Assembly: GCA_016234705.1 (NCBI GenBank)
Contig: JACRAS010000043.1
Span: forward strand, 1 to 64,000
Source: Betaproteobacteria bacterium
Lineage (GTDB): Bacteria > Pseudomonadota > Gammaproteobacteria > Burkholderiales > SG8-39
DNA length: 64,000 nucleotides
Direction of reading: 5' to 3'
Shown: positions 25,456 through 54,580 of the stretch, piece after piece
Layout of the letters: every line of letters starts with the position of its first letter
Position numbering within the stretch: position 1 is the stretch's first letter
The notes under the pieces: model-generated
The model's database searches: none
What the model saw: the letters and a program-made list of their open reading frames with translations, nothing else
What the model was told of the DNA's origin: nothing
Made by a program: the position numbers and the translations under genes

Positions 25456-26607
25456 TCAGAAGCGTCGATAGAGCCAGTACTTCTCGTACAGGATCTTGCC
25501 CGCGTGCCAGAAGAGATTCGGTCCGTGCATCTCGACTTGCGGCGTCGGCTCGGCGTAGAAATTGCCCTTGCCGATGCCGGCTCGCCCGCCACCGGCCTCG
25601 ATGAAGCACATGCCCTCGCCGGCAAATTGACGCGGCGTACCCTTGCCGGTCCAGGCGCGGGCGATGTTGTGCGCCACGACCTCGGCCTGGCCATGGGCGA
25701 AGACGCCGGCCTTGGGCAAGGGACGACCCATCTTGAGGGGAATGGTGGTGATATCGCCGAGCGCAAACACGTTCTCGAATTGCGTTTGCAGCGTATGACG
25801 GTCGACGGGTATCCAGCCGGTTTCGTTGGTCAGGCCCGCCTCCCGCGCCACCGCCGGCGCGCGGTGCGGTGGAACGTAGAGCAGCAGGTCGTAATCGGCC
25901 GAGGCGCCATTGGCGAAGCCGATGCGGTGGGCTGCCGGATCGATTTCCTTGACCTGGTGCTCGGGGTGATAGGCGATGCCGCGTGCCTCGATCATGCCGC
26001 GCACGGCCGCGCCCAGTTCGGGACCGGTAACGACCATCGGCCGCGGCTCGGCGGCGAAGAATTCGATCGTCGCCTGGTCGCGCACGCCGCGCTTGCGCAG
26101 GTGTGATTCCAGCAACAGGGCCGCCTCGTAGGGCGCCGCCGGGCACTTGTACATAGGCGCGGCGGTGAGCACGACGATGCGCCCGCCTTCGAAACGGGCG
26201 AGAGCGTCGCGGATGGCGGTCGCGCCTTCCATGGTGTAGAGGTTGAGGCCGGCTTGCGCCAGCCCCGGGATCGCCTCCGCTGCGTACTCGGCTCCCAGCG
26301 CAATCACCAGCGCGTCGGCCGCGAGCGATTCGCCGGCGATCGCGACTTCGCGGCGCTGCGGATCGATGCGGGTGACATCGCCGTGGCGAAATTCCACGCC
26401 TCGGCCGATCAATCGGTCGAGAGAACGGGTGAAATCCTCCGGCTTGCGCGCGCCGACCATCAACCACAACAAGGACGGCGGAAAAAAGTGCCGCTCGGCG
26501 CGATCAACCGCAATCACGCGATCGGATGTGGGCAAAAGTTTTCTCAAGGTCTCCGCGGCGACCAGCCCGCCGAGACCCGCCCCGAGAATCAGCGCGGTTC
26601 GGCTCAT
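25456..26607 (-). CDS. Sulfide:quinone oxidoreductase-like FAD-dependent oxidoreductase
   Basis: From the ATG at 26607 this gives 383 residues: TALILGAGLGGLVAAETLRKLL (FAD fold), FFPPSLLWLMVGARKPEDFTRSLDRL, ALVIALGAEYAAEAIPG, a CPAAPYEAALLLE segment, and the FAD-contacting NVFALGDITTIPLKMGRPLPKAGVFAHGQAEVVAHNI. These fit the SQR / flavocytochrome c sulfide dehydrogenase group, which oxidises sulfide. The K-C-P-A-A-P segment retains one family cysteine; whether all redox cysteines are kept needs alignment. It lies 2 bp downstream of the dsrE-like gene, in an operon with it. Confidence 0.85.
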   Translation of the reverse strand: MSRTALILGAGLGGLVAAETLRKLLPTSDRVIAVDRAERHFFPPSLLWLMVGARKPEDFTRSLDRLIGRGVEFRHGDVTRIDPQRREVAIAGESLAADALVIALGAEYAAEAIPGLAQAGLNLYTMEGATAIRDALARFEGGRIVVLTAAPMYKCPAAPYEAALLLESHLRKRGVRDQATIEFFAAEPRPMVVTGPELGAAVRGMIEARGIAYHPEHQVKEIDPAAHRIGFANGASADYDLLLYVPPHRAPAVAREAGLTNETGWIPVDRHTLQTQFENVFALGDITTIPLKMGRPLPKAGVFAHGQAEVVAHNIARAWTGKGTPRQFAGEGMCFIEAGGGRAGIGKGNFYAEPTPQVEMHGPNLFWHAGKILYEKYWLYRRF

Positions 26608-26609
26608 GA

Positions 26610-26960
26610 TCAAAACACCATCACTTTGTCGGCCCACTGCGTCCAGGACGTCAGCTCGGCGAGCGTGCTTTTGCGCGCTCCGTCCGCAAGTTCGGGATCC
26701 GCGATCCCGCGAGCATCCATGCAGGTTCCGCAAACGCCCACTTCGGCCTTGTTGCGCAGAACGCGGCCGAGCATGAGCTGGATATTGTAGAAACCTTCGG
26801 GAACCTTTTGCCCGCCTTTGGCGCAGGACGCCGCGTCGCCGATCAAGAACAGTTTTACTTCCTCGCCTTCGGCCTTCGACAGGGCTCCTGCGAGGCGCAA
26901 GCCGTTGTAGCTGCGCTCACTGCCATACGGAGCGTCGTTCAGGATGAATAGAGTCTTCAT
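26610..26960 (-). CDS. DsrE/DsrF-like sulfur-relay family protein
   Basis: This 116-residue protein starts at the ATG at 26960 after GGAGAAC. It begins MKTLFILNDAPYGSERSYNGLRLAGAL and contains LFLIGDAASCAKGGQ and VGVCGTCMDARGI, the cysteine-bearing loops of DsrE-fold proteins. Such proteins carry persulfide sulfur in sulfide oxidation or tRNA thiolation. Its tight linkage to the SQR-like gene (2-bp gap) and to a rhodanese-fused regulator supports a persulfide role here. Confidence 0.88.
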   Translation of the reverse strand: MKTLFILNDAPYGSERSYNGLRLAGALSKAEGEEVKLFLIGDAASCAKGGQKVPEGFYNIQLMLGRVLRNKAEVGVCGTCMDARGIADPELADGARKSTLAELTSWTQWADKVMVF

Positions 26961-26993
26961 GGTGTCGTTCTCCTTTTGTGTCATTGGATCGAT

Positions 26994-27827
26994 TCACGCG
27001 CGATCGCGAACCCTTCCCGGTTCCATAAAGGGAATAGCAAGCAAGTCGGTGAGCTTGACCGCCGCGTCGCTGCCGGTGAGCCCGCGCACGCCGATCGCCA
27101 TGCTCTCCTGCGGCAGGCGCGCGCGGTCGCGATAGGTGCCGCACAGCCGGTCCCACCAGGGCAGATTGAAACCGAAGTTGCTGTTCGTCTCGACCGCCTC
27201 CATCGAATGGTGGATGCGATGCATCTCGGGTGTCACCAGCATCCGGCGCAGCCATCGGTCGGCCGGCTGGCGCAGCCGGAGATTGGCGTGATTGAACATC
27301 GCGGTGGCGTTCAGCATTACCTCGAACACCAGCACCGCAGCCGCCGGCGCCCCGAGCACCGCGATGGCCGTGAACTTGATCAGCATCGACAGCAGGATCT
27401 CGAGCGGATGAAAACGCGCGCCGGTAGTTACGTCGATGTCCGCGTCGGCGTGATGAACCCGGTGCAGGCGCCACAGCAGGGGTAGCGCGTGGAACATGAC
27501 ATGCTGCAAATAGATGGCAAAGTCGAGCGCGATCAGCGAAAGCGCAAAGGCCCACCAGAACGGAACATCAAAGGCGTTCAGCAATCCCCAGCCGCGTTCG
27601 GCCGCAAGCAGGGCGAATCCGACCGCCGCGACTGGAAACAAGAGGCGCAGGATCAGGCTGTTCAGCACCACCAGCGCCAGGTTGTGCAGCCAGCGCACCC
27701 GTCGCGGCAACAGCCGCGCCCGCCTGGGCGCCAGCGCCTCCCAGACCGCCATCAGCGTGAACATGCCGAAGAATGCGCCCAGCCGGACCGCCGGCTCGTG
27801 GCCTAGCGCCCATTCGTTAAATGTCAT
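26994..27827 (-). CDS. Sterol desaturase / fatty acid hydroxylase family membrane protein
   Basis: This 277-residue protein has four or more transmembrane segments and the di-iron histidine boxes HVMFH, HRVHH and HRIHH, plus HANLR. Members hydroxylate or desaturate lipids at the membrane. It is the first gene of the leftward operon with the DsrE-like and SQR-like genes (33-bp gap). The same linkage to SQR occurs in some sulfide-responsive operons, but the lipid substrate is unknown. Its start at 27827 lies 58 bp from the operator shared with the ArsR-rhodanese gene. Confidence 0.9.
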   Translation of the reverse strand: MTFNEWALGHEPAVRLGAFFGMFTLMAVWEALAPRRARLLPRRVRWLHNLALVVLNSLILRLLFPVAAVGFALLAAERGWGLLNAFDVPFWWAFALSLIALDFAIYLQHVMFHALPLLWRLHRVHHADADIDVTTGARFHPLEILLSMLIKFTAIAVLGAPAAAVLVFEVMLNATAMFNHANLRLRQPADRWLRRMLVTPEMHRIHHSMEAVETNSNFGFNLPWWDRLCGTYRDRARLPQESMAIGVRGLTGSDAAVKLTDLLAIPFMEPGRVRDRA

Positions 27828-27851
27828 AATTGCTCTTCGTCCGCATGGACC

Positions 27852-27907
27852 TTGGCCTGACCTCGCAGGTCAGGTATAATTCAAGTATTCAACTAATTAG
27901 TTGAATA
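27852..27907 (+). promoter_or_regulatory. Promoter with two perfect dyads for the ArsR-rhodanese regulator and divergent operon
   Basis: A sigma70-type promoter TTGGCC (27852-27857), 17-bp spacer, TATAAT (27875-27880) reads toward the regulator gene. A perfect 19-bp dyad CCTGACCTCGCAGGTCAGG (27856-27874) overlaps the last two bases of the -35 hexamer and fills the spacer. A perfect 22-bp AT-rich dyad (27886-27907, half-site TATTCAACTAA) covers the expected transcription start. The AT-rich dyad resembles ArsR/BigR-type operators (ATTCAA-N-TTGAAT). The divergent operon begins 58 bp away and probably shares control. Confidence 0.8.
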
Positions 27908-27926
27908 ATAGGAGACTACGGCCGCG

Positions 27927-28586
27927 ATGTCAACAGCTAATTTCAAACAGGACGTGCATGCCCAGCTCGCACGGGTGGGGAAAGCCCTGTCACACGGCAA
28001 CAGGCTGGAGTTGCTCGATTTCGTCGCGCAGGGGCCGCGCAGCGTGGACGAGCTTGCGAGCATGACGCGGCTCTCGGTCGCAAACGCGTCGAAGCATCTG
28101 CAGGAACTGCGCCGCGCCGGGCTGGTACGGGCGCGCAAGCAGGGCCTGCGGGTGTACTACGAGCTGGCGGGAGCGGACGTGGTGGCTTTGATCGCGGCGC
28201 TGGGACGAGTCGCCGAGACGCGGCTCGCCGAAATGGAGCAACTGGTGCGCACCTACATCACCGCCCGCGACGACCTGGAGCCGATTCCCGCCGCTGAACT
28301 GGTCAAGCGCTCGAAGCTCGGGCTCGTGACCGTGCTCGACGTCCGCCCCGCCAAAGAGTTCGCCGCCGGGCATTTGCCCGGCGCGATCAACGTCCCGGTC
28401 GAAGACCTCGCCAAACGCTTGAGAAAATTGCCCAAGGGACGCGAAGTCATCGCCTATTGCCGCGGTCCGTACTGCCTGCTTTCGGTGGACGCGGTAGCGC
28501 TGCTGCGCACGAAAGGCTTCAAGGCGCGCCGGCTGGAGGACGGTTTTCCGGAGTGGAAAGCGTCCGGACTGCCGGTCGAGGCCTGA
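27927..28586 (+). CDS. ArsR-family regulator fused to a rhodanese domain
   Basis: This 219-residue two-domain protein has an ArsR/SmtB winged helix at about residues 8-95 (LARVGKALSHGNRLELLDFV, LASMTRLSVANASKHLQELRRAGLVRARKQGLRVYYEL). A rhodanese domain follows at about 125-215 with VLDVRPAKEFAAGHLPGAINVPV and the active-site loop AYCRGPYCLLS. The rhodanese cysteine could accept or sense persulfide sulfur. No metal-binding CxC is seen in the ArsR part. It probably represses its own gene and the divergent SQR operon until sulfide or persulfide appears. GGAG lies 12 bases before the ATG. Confidence 0.95.
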   Translation: MSTANFKQDVHAQLARVGKALSHGNRLELLDFVAQGPRSVDELASMTRLSVANASKHLQELRRAGLVRARKQGLRVYYELAGADVVALIAALGRVAETRLAEMEQLVRTYITARDDLEPIPAAELVKRSKLGLVTVLDVRPAKEFAAGHLPGAINVPVEDLAKRLRKLPKGREVIAYCRGPYCLLSVDAVALLRTKGFKARRLEDGFPEWKASGLPVEA

Positions 28587-30807: not shown

Positions 30808-30814
30808 CCGCTCA

Positions 30815-31014
30815 ATCCGACCGGGAGAGCGCCGCTGTTGCAGGGCGGCCGCCGAAGGCGCAATACCCAGAAACTCTCAGGCAAAAGGGACCGGTCGGGC
30901 GGAAGCGGTGCTTCCGTCACTCTGGAGAGCAGCCGCGGAATAAGCGGCCACCGAAGGGGCGCACAGCCGACTGCATGAGGCTGTAATCTCTCAGGTATCA
31001 AGGACAGAGGGGTA
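30815..31014 (+). ncRNA. Tandem glycine riboswitch (gcvT leader)
   Basis: Two glycine aptamers lie head to tail. The first spans about 30815-30897, with ACCGGGAGAGC, ACCCAGAAACTCTCAGGCAAAAGGGACCGGT pieces. The second spans about 30918-31012, with CTCTGGAGAGC, CACCGAAGGGGC and ATCTCTCAGGTATCAAGGACAGAGG pieces. The short linker and repeated GGAGAGC/CTCTCAGG cores are diagnostic. It leads into gcvT 52 bp later and should switch the glycine cleavage operon on when glycine is plentiful. The short CCTTTTTC-type sequence near 31039 could belong to the expression platform. Confidence 0.95.
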
Positions 31015-31065
31015 ACGAAGACCTAAGGTCGGCGTTGCCCCTTTTTCATTGCTATCGAGGCGAAC

Positions 31066-32151
31066 GTGCTCAAGACTACTCCGCTCAACGCCGCTCACCG
31101 TGCCCTGGGGGCGCGCATGGTCGATTTCGGCGGCTGGGACATGCCGGTCAACTACGGCTCCCAGATCGAGGAACATCACGCGGTGCGGCGCGACGCCGGG
31201 ATGTTCGATGTCTCGCATATGCTCGCAATCGATCTGCACGGCGCCGGCGCGCGAGATTTTCTGCGCCGCGCATTGGCCAACGACACGGACAAGCTGCGCG
31301 AACCGGGCCGCGCGCTCTATTCCTGCCTGCTCAACGACGCGGGCGGCATCATCGACGACCTGATTGTGTATTTTTTTACCGATGAATATTTTCGCCTGGT
31401 GGTGAATGCCGGTAGAGCCGAGACGGACCTCATCTGGCTCGAGTCGCTCAAGCAACGCTTCGGTGCCGCGCTCGATCTGCTGCCGCGGCGCGATCTCGCC
31501 CTGATCGCGGTGCAGGGTCCCAACGCGCGCGAGCGGGTGTGGCAGGCGCTGCCCGAGACACGCGCGACAACCGCAGCGATGCAGCCATTCCACGCGGTGC
31601 AGGCAGGCGAGTTGATGCTGGCGCGCACCGGCTATACCGGCGAAGACGGTTTCGAAATTATGCTGCCGGCAGCTCGCGCGGAGGGGTTGTGGCAGCAACT
31701 CATAGCCTGCGGCGTGAAACCCTGCGGCCTGGGCGCGCGCGACACGCTGCGCCTGGAAGCGGGCATGAATCTATGGGGCCAGGAGATGGACGAGAGCGTG
31801 TCGCCGCTGGACGCGGGGCTCGCCTGGACCGTCGATCTGGACAGTGCCCGCGATTTCATCGGCAAGGCGGCTCTGCTCGCCCGTCCGCAGGGCCGGCAGT
31901 TGCTGGGACTTGTACTCGCCGAACCGGGCGGCGTGCTGCGCAGCCACCAGAAAGTCGCCACGCCGCCAGGCGAGGGCGAGATCACCAGCGGCACGTTTTC
32001 GCCGTCCCTGAACCGCTCGATCGCGCTGGCCCGCATCCCCTTGGGCGTGGAGGTCGGCGCGCTGGTGCAGGTGTCGGTGCGCGATAGGCAGCTCGCGGCA
32101 AAGGTGGTGAAACCGCCTTTCGTTCGCAACGGCAGAATCTTGGTCAACTAA
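31066..32151 (+). CDS. gcvT: Aminomethyltransferase (glycine cleavage T protein)
   Basis: This 361-residue T protein starts at a GTG (31066) after GAGGCG. It contains [56 protein letters not shown] and [23 protein letters not shown], covering the folate-binding and C-terminal barrel domains. It transfers the methylene of the lipoyl-bound aminomethyl group to tetrahydrofolate and releases ammonia. It is the first gene of the riboswitch-controlled gcvTHP operon. Confidence 0.97.
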
Positions 32152-53404: not shown

Positions 53405-53567
53405 TATACGTGGCGACTTGAATCGCCCCCCGTTGTTGCGGAGTTGCGATCTTGTATCTTGTATAAAGGCAACCCCAAGCCGCTGTTGCTTTTATCCATA
53501 ACCGTGATTTTGGTACGGATGCGTTTTTCATCCGTACCAAAATCACGGTTGGCGCGCGTAGCGCGCA
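53405..53567 (+). repeat. Hairpin-bearing intergenic repeat, family 1 copy 1
   Basis: This 163-bp non-coding segment is homologous in the same orientation to 54429-54580. Shared landmarks are TATACGTGGCG, GTTGTTGC and GTTGCGATCTTG near the left end. At the right end, a perfect 22-bp stem (53500-53521 with 53529-53550, arm core GGTACGGATG) encloses a 7-base loop CGTTTTT, and a second hairpin GCGCGC-GTA-GCGCGC lies at 53554-53566. It fills the convergent gap between an acyl-CoA dehydrogenase and the enoyl-CoA hydratase gene. Confidence 0.8.
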
Positions 53568-54428: not shown

Positions 54429-54580
54429 TATACGTGGCGGCATAAATTGTCCCACGGTTGTTGCAGCGTTGCGATCTTGGATAAAACCCCCAGGCTGCGT
54501 TTGATGTTAACCAGAACCGTGTTTCTGGTACGGATGGTTTTTATCCGTACCAAAAACGCGGTTGGCGCGCGCAGCGCGCA
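54429..54580 (+). repeat. Hairpin-bearing intergenic repeat, family 1 copy 2
   Basis: This 152-bp copy has the same order of blocks as the repeat at 53405-53567. The main hairpin (54515-54535 with 54543-54563) keeps the GGTACGGAT/ATCCGTACC core but has one G-U and one mismatched pair. The adjacent GCGCGC-AGCGCGC hairpin is also kept. It lies between the enoyl-CoA hydratase start and the end of glgC. Confidence 0.8.

Follow-up and report, generated by a model that had tools for sequence, protein, structure and literature searches.

The 99-bp intergenic region between an ArsR-rhodanese regulator gene and a divergently transcribed gene of the fatty acid hydroxylase superfamily contains two perfect dyads, one GC-rich and one AT-rich, which raises the question of which of them serves as a control site, for which protein and for which promoters. 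A sequence-only reading had placed both dyads in one promoter, explained them by two regulators or by an induced shift of a single regulator between them, and suggested that the rhodanese domain of the regulator could sense persulfide directly. Both dyads are present, with the sequences and at the positions that had been given for them. The reading that we consider probable from the sequence comparisons is that of an autoregulated ArsR-rhodanese repressor of sulfide genes, which would act at one operator, the AT-rich dyad, between two facing promoters and would respond to sulfane sulfur through its rhodanese domain. Coordinates are collected in Table 1, counted from the first letter of the window, which is the whole 64-kb stretch that was analysed and is part of a genome of 4.49 Mb.

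Table 1. Genes and putative control elements of the ArsR-rhodanese locus (window positions)
Feature	Position	Strand	Remarks
Sulfide:quinone oxidoreductase (SQR)-like flavoprotein	25456..26733	-	PF07992; ORF as listed from TTG
DsrE-family sulfurtransferase-like protein	26610..26984	-	PF02635, E 1.3e-23; ORF as listed
Fatty acid hydroxylase / sterol desaturase superfamily protein	26994..27827	-	PF04116, E 5.6e-30; first gene of the divergent set
Regulator promoter TTGGCC-17-TATAAT	27852..27880	+	10/12 consensus bases
GC-rich dyad CCTGACCT-CGC-AGGTCAGG	27856..27874		8-bp arms; within the spacer of the regulator promoter
Operator ATTCAA-N8-TTGAAT	27887..27906		core of the 22-bp dyad 27886-27907
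Divergent-gene promoter TTGACA-17-TATTAT	27905..27933	-	-35 at 27933-27928, -10 at 27910-27905; 11/12 consensus bases
Regulator start ATGTCAA	27927..27933	+	last six bases, read in reverse complement, give the divergent -35 TTGACA
ArsR-rhodanese regulator, 219 aa	27927..28586	+	PF01022, PF12840 and PF00581 above Pfam gathering thresholds

The proposed tie between this module and sulfide genes (DsrE and SQR) is supported. The real start of the DsrE gene may lie further downstream than listed, and for the SQR-like gene an ATG at the DsrE stop (about 26607) is a likelier start than the listed TTG; the best NCBIfam match of its product is type III SQR (E 1.5e-68, 231 bits, under the cut-off of 525). 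The regulator has a single full-length homolog in its own genome, namely the window's own copy, and the remaining five matches are partial (E 1e-7 or weaker). For comparison, homologous loci were taken from two sources. A search of the family at E up to 1e-30 found the regulator in 30 of 98 genomes. A species genome collection contributed the 80 best of 263 related stretches, which come mostly from beta- and gammaproteobacterial metagenome-assembled genomes, in part from alphaproteobacterial ones and in a few cases from genomes with the label Nitrospinota or Nitrospirae. The 112 upstream regions comprised 101 distinct sequences after removal of 11 duplicates, and 99 were usable once one that was too short (L134) and one without an upstream start (L153) had been left out before counting. 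The loci are related and were picked by similarity, so counts over them are non-independent.

The AT-rich dyad (TATTCAACTAATTAGTTGAATA, 27886-27907) has perfect 11-bp arms and is far beyond chance, since no dyad with arms of at least 11 arose when the 99-bp intergenic sequence was dinucleotide-shuffled 20,000 times. Its core was found with at most two mismatches at 85 of the 99 usable loci (55 perfect, 23 with one mismatch and 7 with two), which bears out the suggestion that the AT-rich dyad is a control site of the module. The half-site columns are 84-100% conserved and the central eight columns 39-87%; because the center varies while the 6-bp half-sites are near-invariant, the perfect 22-bp symmetry in the window appears to be partly accidental. 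The palindrome is conserved beside the ArsR-rhodanese gene and would be bound by a dimer of its product. A search for further copies, which the sequence-only reading had recommended, found the operator to be unique at zero mismatches in the 4.49-Mb genome. Three matches with one mismatch (C6, C125 and C134) were rejected as regulon sites, as inspection by eye revealed no recognizable promoter unit at them, and the center of C134 is of the TetR type.

Duplicated pieces of the regulator gene were observed in two other genomes. One (G017) contains a truncated second copy encoding residues 88-212 (L043, 8545-8919), approximately 3.7 kb from the intact copy and with a one-mismatch operator approximately 0.5 kb ahead of it. 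In the other (G010), the 5' end of the regulator gene, with operator and start (L160, 1840-2023), has been copied beside methyltransferase-like and MMPL-type genes.

The earlier assignment of the region to one promoter was right in that a promoter for the regulator is present on the plus strand, and incomplete in that a second, stronger one faces it on the minus strand. From shuffled sequence, 0.1 promoters would be expected in the 401-bp region around the locus. A TATAAT-like hexamer (5 or 6 of 6 bases) precedes the operator at 23 of 26 betaproteobacterial loci, most commonly by 12 nt. The minus-strand promoter shares bases of its -10 with the edge of the operator, and by its position it would serve the fatty acid hydroxylase, DsrE and SQR genes. 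The pattern TTGACA-N16..18-TAnTATTCAA occurs once in the window and in none of 100 shuffles. Upstream of the operator, TTGAC[AT] is found at 78 of 85 operator loci and is missing from seven (L038, L100, L121, L139, L147, L148 and L151), while the exact TAnTATTCAA is matched at 46 of 85, the -10 being more variable outside the window's group. Similarity to the -10 is a weak argument for this promoter when used by itself and was dropped as such: because the operator is itself AT-rich, spacings other than 17 nt (22 nt, for example) give an average TATAAT match that is just as high, and there is no unique peak. By sequence, two opposed promoters overlap here, and the operator separates them. Their start sites are predicted at approximately 27887 (plus, the left edge of the operator) and 27898 (minus), positions that both fall within the operator.

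The -35 hexamer of the minus promoter coincides with the start of the regulator gene. TGTCAA spans the start codon at 70 of 85 operator loci and at 3 of 14 operator-less loci (Fisher p 1.3e-5, from non-independent loci). Where the second residue of the regulator is serine, its codon is TCA at 71 of 76 operator loci, compared with 74 of 738 serine codons elsewhere in the same ORFs (a 10% background); in the betaproteobacterial subset the figures are 25 of 25 and 9 of 187. ATGTCAA might be kept solely for translation initiation, by way of an AT-rich second codon, with the minus promoter located elsewhere. A/T is generally enriched in early codons, selection for unstructured starts may account in part for TCA after ATG, and the three operator-less loci in which TGTCAA also spans the start codon (L131, L132 and L137) are in line with such an explanation. 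However, at six loci whose regulator has its start at a distance of 51-84 nt from the operator (L027, L039, L133, L136, L145 and L149), TTGACA or TTGACT is retained in non-coding DNA beside the operator, followed at a spacing of 16-18 nt by a -10, and a TTGAC-type -35 is also kept at six sites ahead of other genes. Because promoter spacing is preserved at these sites, TTGACA is not merely a coding sequence, and the difference between loci with and without the operator likewise counts against a purely translational constraint, which we regard as unlikely. If it is kept as a -35, the odd coding constraint ATG-TCA-A, which is widely shared, would instead reflect a promoter element of the neighboring operon.

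The GC-rich dyad fills the whole 17-nt spacer of the regulator promoter (27858-27874) and extends 2 bp into its -35. On its own it is only mildly unusual: arms of at least 8, with a gap of up to 12, arose in 1.2% of the same 20,000 shuffles, and the 64-kb window contains 35 perfect dyads with arms of at least 8. Were it a second genuine operator, bound by another regulator or by one that shifts between sites, its perfect arms within a promoter spacer and the retention of the outer CCTGA...TCAGG in three (L080, L082 and L090) of the 10 close relatives would find an explanation, although these outer arms touch the -35 and the -10, which is enough by itself to account for their retention. At the same offset in the 10 close relatives, the dyad has decayed in every case to between 3 and 7 of its 8 pairs, and 30 of the 34 changed pairs break complementarity while 4 keep it. 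It is absent from other genera, and at four loci (L022-L024 and L036) there is no room for it because the divergent gene begins beside the operator, with its start codon 12-18 nt from the operator center. Matches in the window's own genome with at most 3 mismatches number 20, against 22 for a reversed control, so the recommended search for other copies yielded nothing above background. Absence of the GC-rich dyad from conserved loci of relatives had been named beforehand as the observation that would speak against the proposal, and because the dyad is unconserved there, the idea of two regulators or of an induced shift fails; a second operator in the spacer is highly improbable.

A role for the GC-rich dyad as an RNA hairpin was also considered. 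It lies inside the predicted leader of the divergent operon (minus-strand transcript from approximately 27898 to 27827), where it could act in attenuation or stability, and the fold z-score is -2.17 for the window's leader and -2.48 for that of one other locus (L088). Over 68 leaders of the divergent gene, however, the mean z-score is -0.22, no terminator-like site occurs in 27700-28100 and no Rfam family matches the leader. The dyad was therefore rejected as a conserved mRNA hairpin, and we give a leader function very little credence. The GC-rich dyad is probably a lineage-local near-coincidence within a promoter spacer, with no visible role, and the AT-rich dyad would be the sole operator. 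Structured elements were noted elsewhere in the window as well. A tandem glycine riboswitch, with two RF00504 aptamers of 63.8 and 51.4 bits, occupies 30812-31017 upstream of a gcvT ORF at 31066, and two related long hairpins at 53500-53550 and 54526-54552 have common TGGTACGGATG arms that are perfect over 22 bp and 10 bp, respectively.

In related genomes the combination of promoter and operator recurs ahead of other genes, without a start codon in the -35, at six sites (L161, where the -35 is TTGACG, L162, L163, L168, L169 and L170). These precede genes for a small protein, DsrE and SQR (L161), an MMPL-family transporter (L162, and L163 on the evidence of the initial residues), an MBL-fold protein that resembles persulfide dioxygenases by a partial match, below cut-off, to the dioxygenase part of Blh (L168 and L169), and DsrE and TauE (L170). 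The MMPL genes of G005 and G008 and the SQR gene of G022 are candidate targets supported by one site each. A pattern search through 399 genomes of the order found the exact unit in 9, compared with 0 for a control pattern. All eight of these genomes other than the window's own encode an ArsR-rhodanese protein, against 30 in a sample of 100 from the order. These units mark a candidate regulon that includes sulfide- and persulfide-related genes and that the regulator may control. The most constant neighbor of this sulfur-linked regulator is a lipid enzyme: of the 79 operator loci with 1 kb or more of upstream sequence, 69 have a gene of the fatty acid hydroxylase superfamily divergent to it.

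The operator might instead belong to another regulator, such as a TetR-family protein, since look-alike TTCAAACG-N2-CGTTTGAAT sites are common in genomes of the family and stand beside TetR genes at the four loci that were checked (L062, L072, L074 and L076). The look-alikes have a different center (AAACG..CGTTT) and adjoin TetR and acyl-CoA-dehydrogenase genes. Furthermore, zero-mismatch sites without the TetR-type center, as read by eye, occur in 15 family genomes, all of which are among the 30 of 98 that encode an ArsR-rhodanese protein. Ownership of the operator by another regulator is hence scarcely credible, and its assignment to the ArsR-rhodanese protein is preferred. Sites of the TTCAAACGAACGTTTGAATnnTAG type in the family genomes were discarded as regulon members, as their flanking genes form a TetR system at the four loci checked by Pfam, which covered the TetR genes only. 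At these loci the palindrome lies between TetR-family and ABC-transporter-like genes, and an acyl-CoA-dehydrogenase-like gene follows the TetR gene.

The regulator combines an ArsR-type winged helix-turn-helix (HTH; residues 21-70) with a rhodanese domain (122-212). The former is matched by PF01022 at 41.1 bits (cut-off 22), PF12840 at 40 bits (27) and NF033788 at 72.8 bits (55), and the latter by PF00581 at 64.2 bits (22.2). An AlphaFold model (mean pLDDT 86.4, pTM 0.54) contains the helices and two wing strands at 67-72 and 75-80; it does not fix the relative placing of the two domains. Cys178 and Cys183, both in the active-site loop of the rhodanese, are part of a CRGPYC motif (CRGPxC across the family) and are invariant in 57 of 57 aligned homologs. 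None of the 57 has two or more cysteines in residues 1-110, although 19 have some cysteine there; the window's protein has none. The pair of HTH cysteines typical of SqrR and BigR is thus lacking in these homologs, as is a cysteine-based metal site in the HTH, where no column exceeds 12 cysteines in 57 homologs (position 69), and with a score of 40.8 the protein stays below the cut-off of the BigR equivalog model, which is 155. In the ArsR proteins known to sense persulfide, two cysteines of the HTH serve this purpose (PMC12423496; PMC10451225). Here that pair is absent and the loop pair invariant, from which we infer, by exclusion and conservation, that sulfane sulfur is sensed through the rhodanese loop. 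The earlier suggestion of a rhodanese persulfide sensor is accordingly plausible.

In the model that we favor, the plus promoter makes the regulator and the minus promoter the fatty acid hydroxylase/DsrE/SQR transcript, and a repressor dimer on the operator would block both; a single dimer could shut both because the two predicted start sites fall inside the operator. Each transcript would pass through the opposite promoter, and polymerases would be unable to use both together. Sulfane sulfur would load Cys178/Cys183, release the repressor from DNA and thereby switch on sulfide oxidation and synthesis of the regulator itself. A further-reaching possibility, which we advance tentatively and with somewhat more doubt than conviction, is that these proteins constitute a separate class of sulfane-sulfur sensors, in which the HTH thiol switch was lost and its place taken by the invariant CRGPxC dithiol of a fused rhodanese, and which operate a mutual-exclusion switch with a -35 in the start codon. 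If so, the active site of a sulfurtransferase serves as the signal input, and the translation start of the regulator is inseparable from the promoter of the sulfide operon. Our literature search found no paper on the operator or regulon of ArsR-rhodanese regulators. Such regulators are common in the sampled order, and the analysis supplies an operator open to experimental test, a map of the two promoters, a set of candidate regulon genes and a specific candidate site for sensing.

Several known systems invite comparison. The best solved relative of the N-terminal domain is Rv0324/Mb0332 (PDB 2kko, which we take to be Mb0332, and 3gw2; E 1.1e-20, residues 10-100), and Rv0324 presumably carries a C-terminal rhodanese domain. 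The likeness to this mycobacterial protein lies in the ArsR-type N-terminal domain, by which alone the two were compared here. Rv0324, the Mycobacterium tuberculosis protein, is reported to bind the promoter of its own gene in EMSA (PMC9953421), which speaks for the model favored here.

Persulfide-sensing ArsR proteins of the SqrR/BigR class are described as having two conserved cysteines in the HTH domain and targets that include sqr, pdo, rhd, RND pumps and TauE (PMC12423496). A palindrome over the promoter of the regulator's own gene is known from the footprint of YgaV and from the site deduced for SqrR, ATTC-N8-GAAT (PMC9774250). The present system resembles SqrR, BigR, SoxR and YgaV in its ArsR-type protein and the ATTC...GAAT palindrome at its own promoter, and its candidate targets would overlap in kind with those of that class. 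Unlike the SqrR/BigR class, it has its invariant cysteine pair in a fused rhodanese, with none of the 57 homologs possessing the HTH pair, and the half-sites are spaced as ATTC-N12-GAAT rather than N8.

In E. coli, bioA-bioB and argE-argCBH each have one operator between overlapping face-to-face promoters, and the regulator gene is located elsewhere. The arrangement read here from the sequence likewise places a single operator between two overlapping, facing promoters. In contrast to bioA-bioB and argE-argCBH, one of the facing promoters would make the regulator itself, and the -35 of the other lies in the regulator's start codon.
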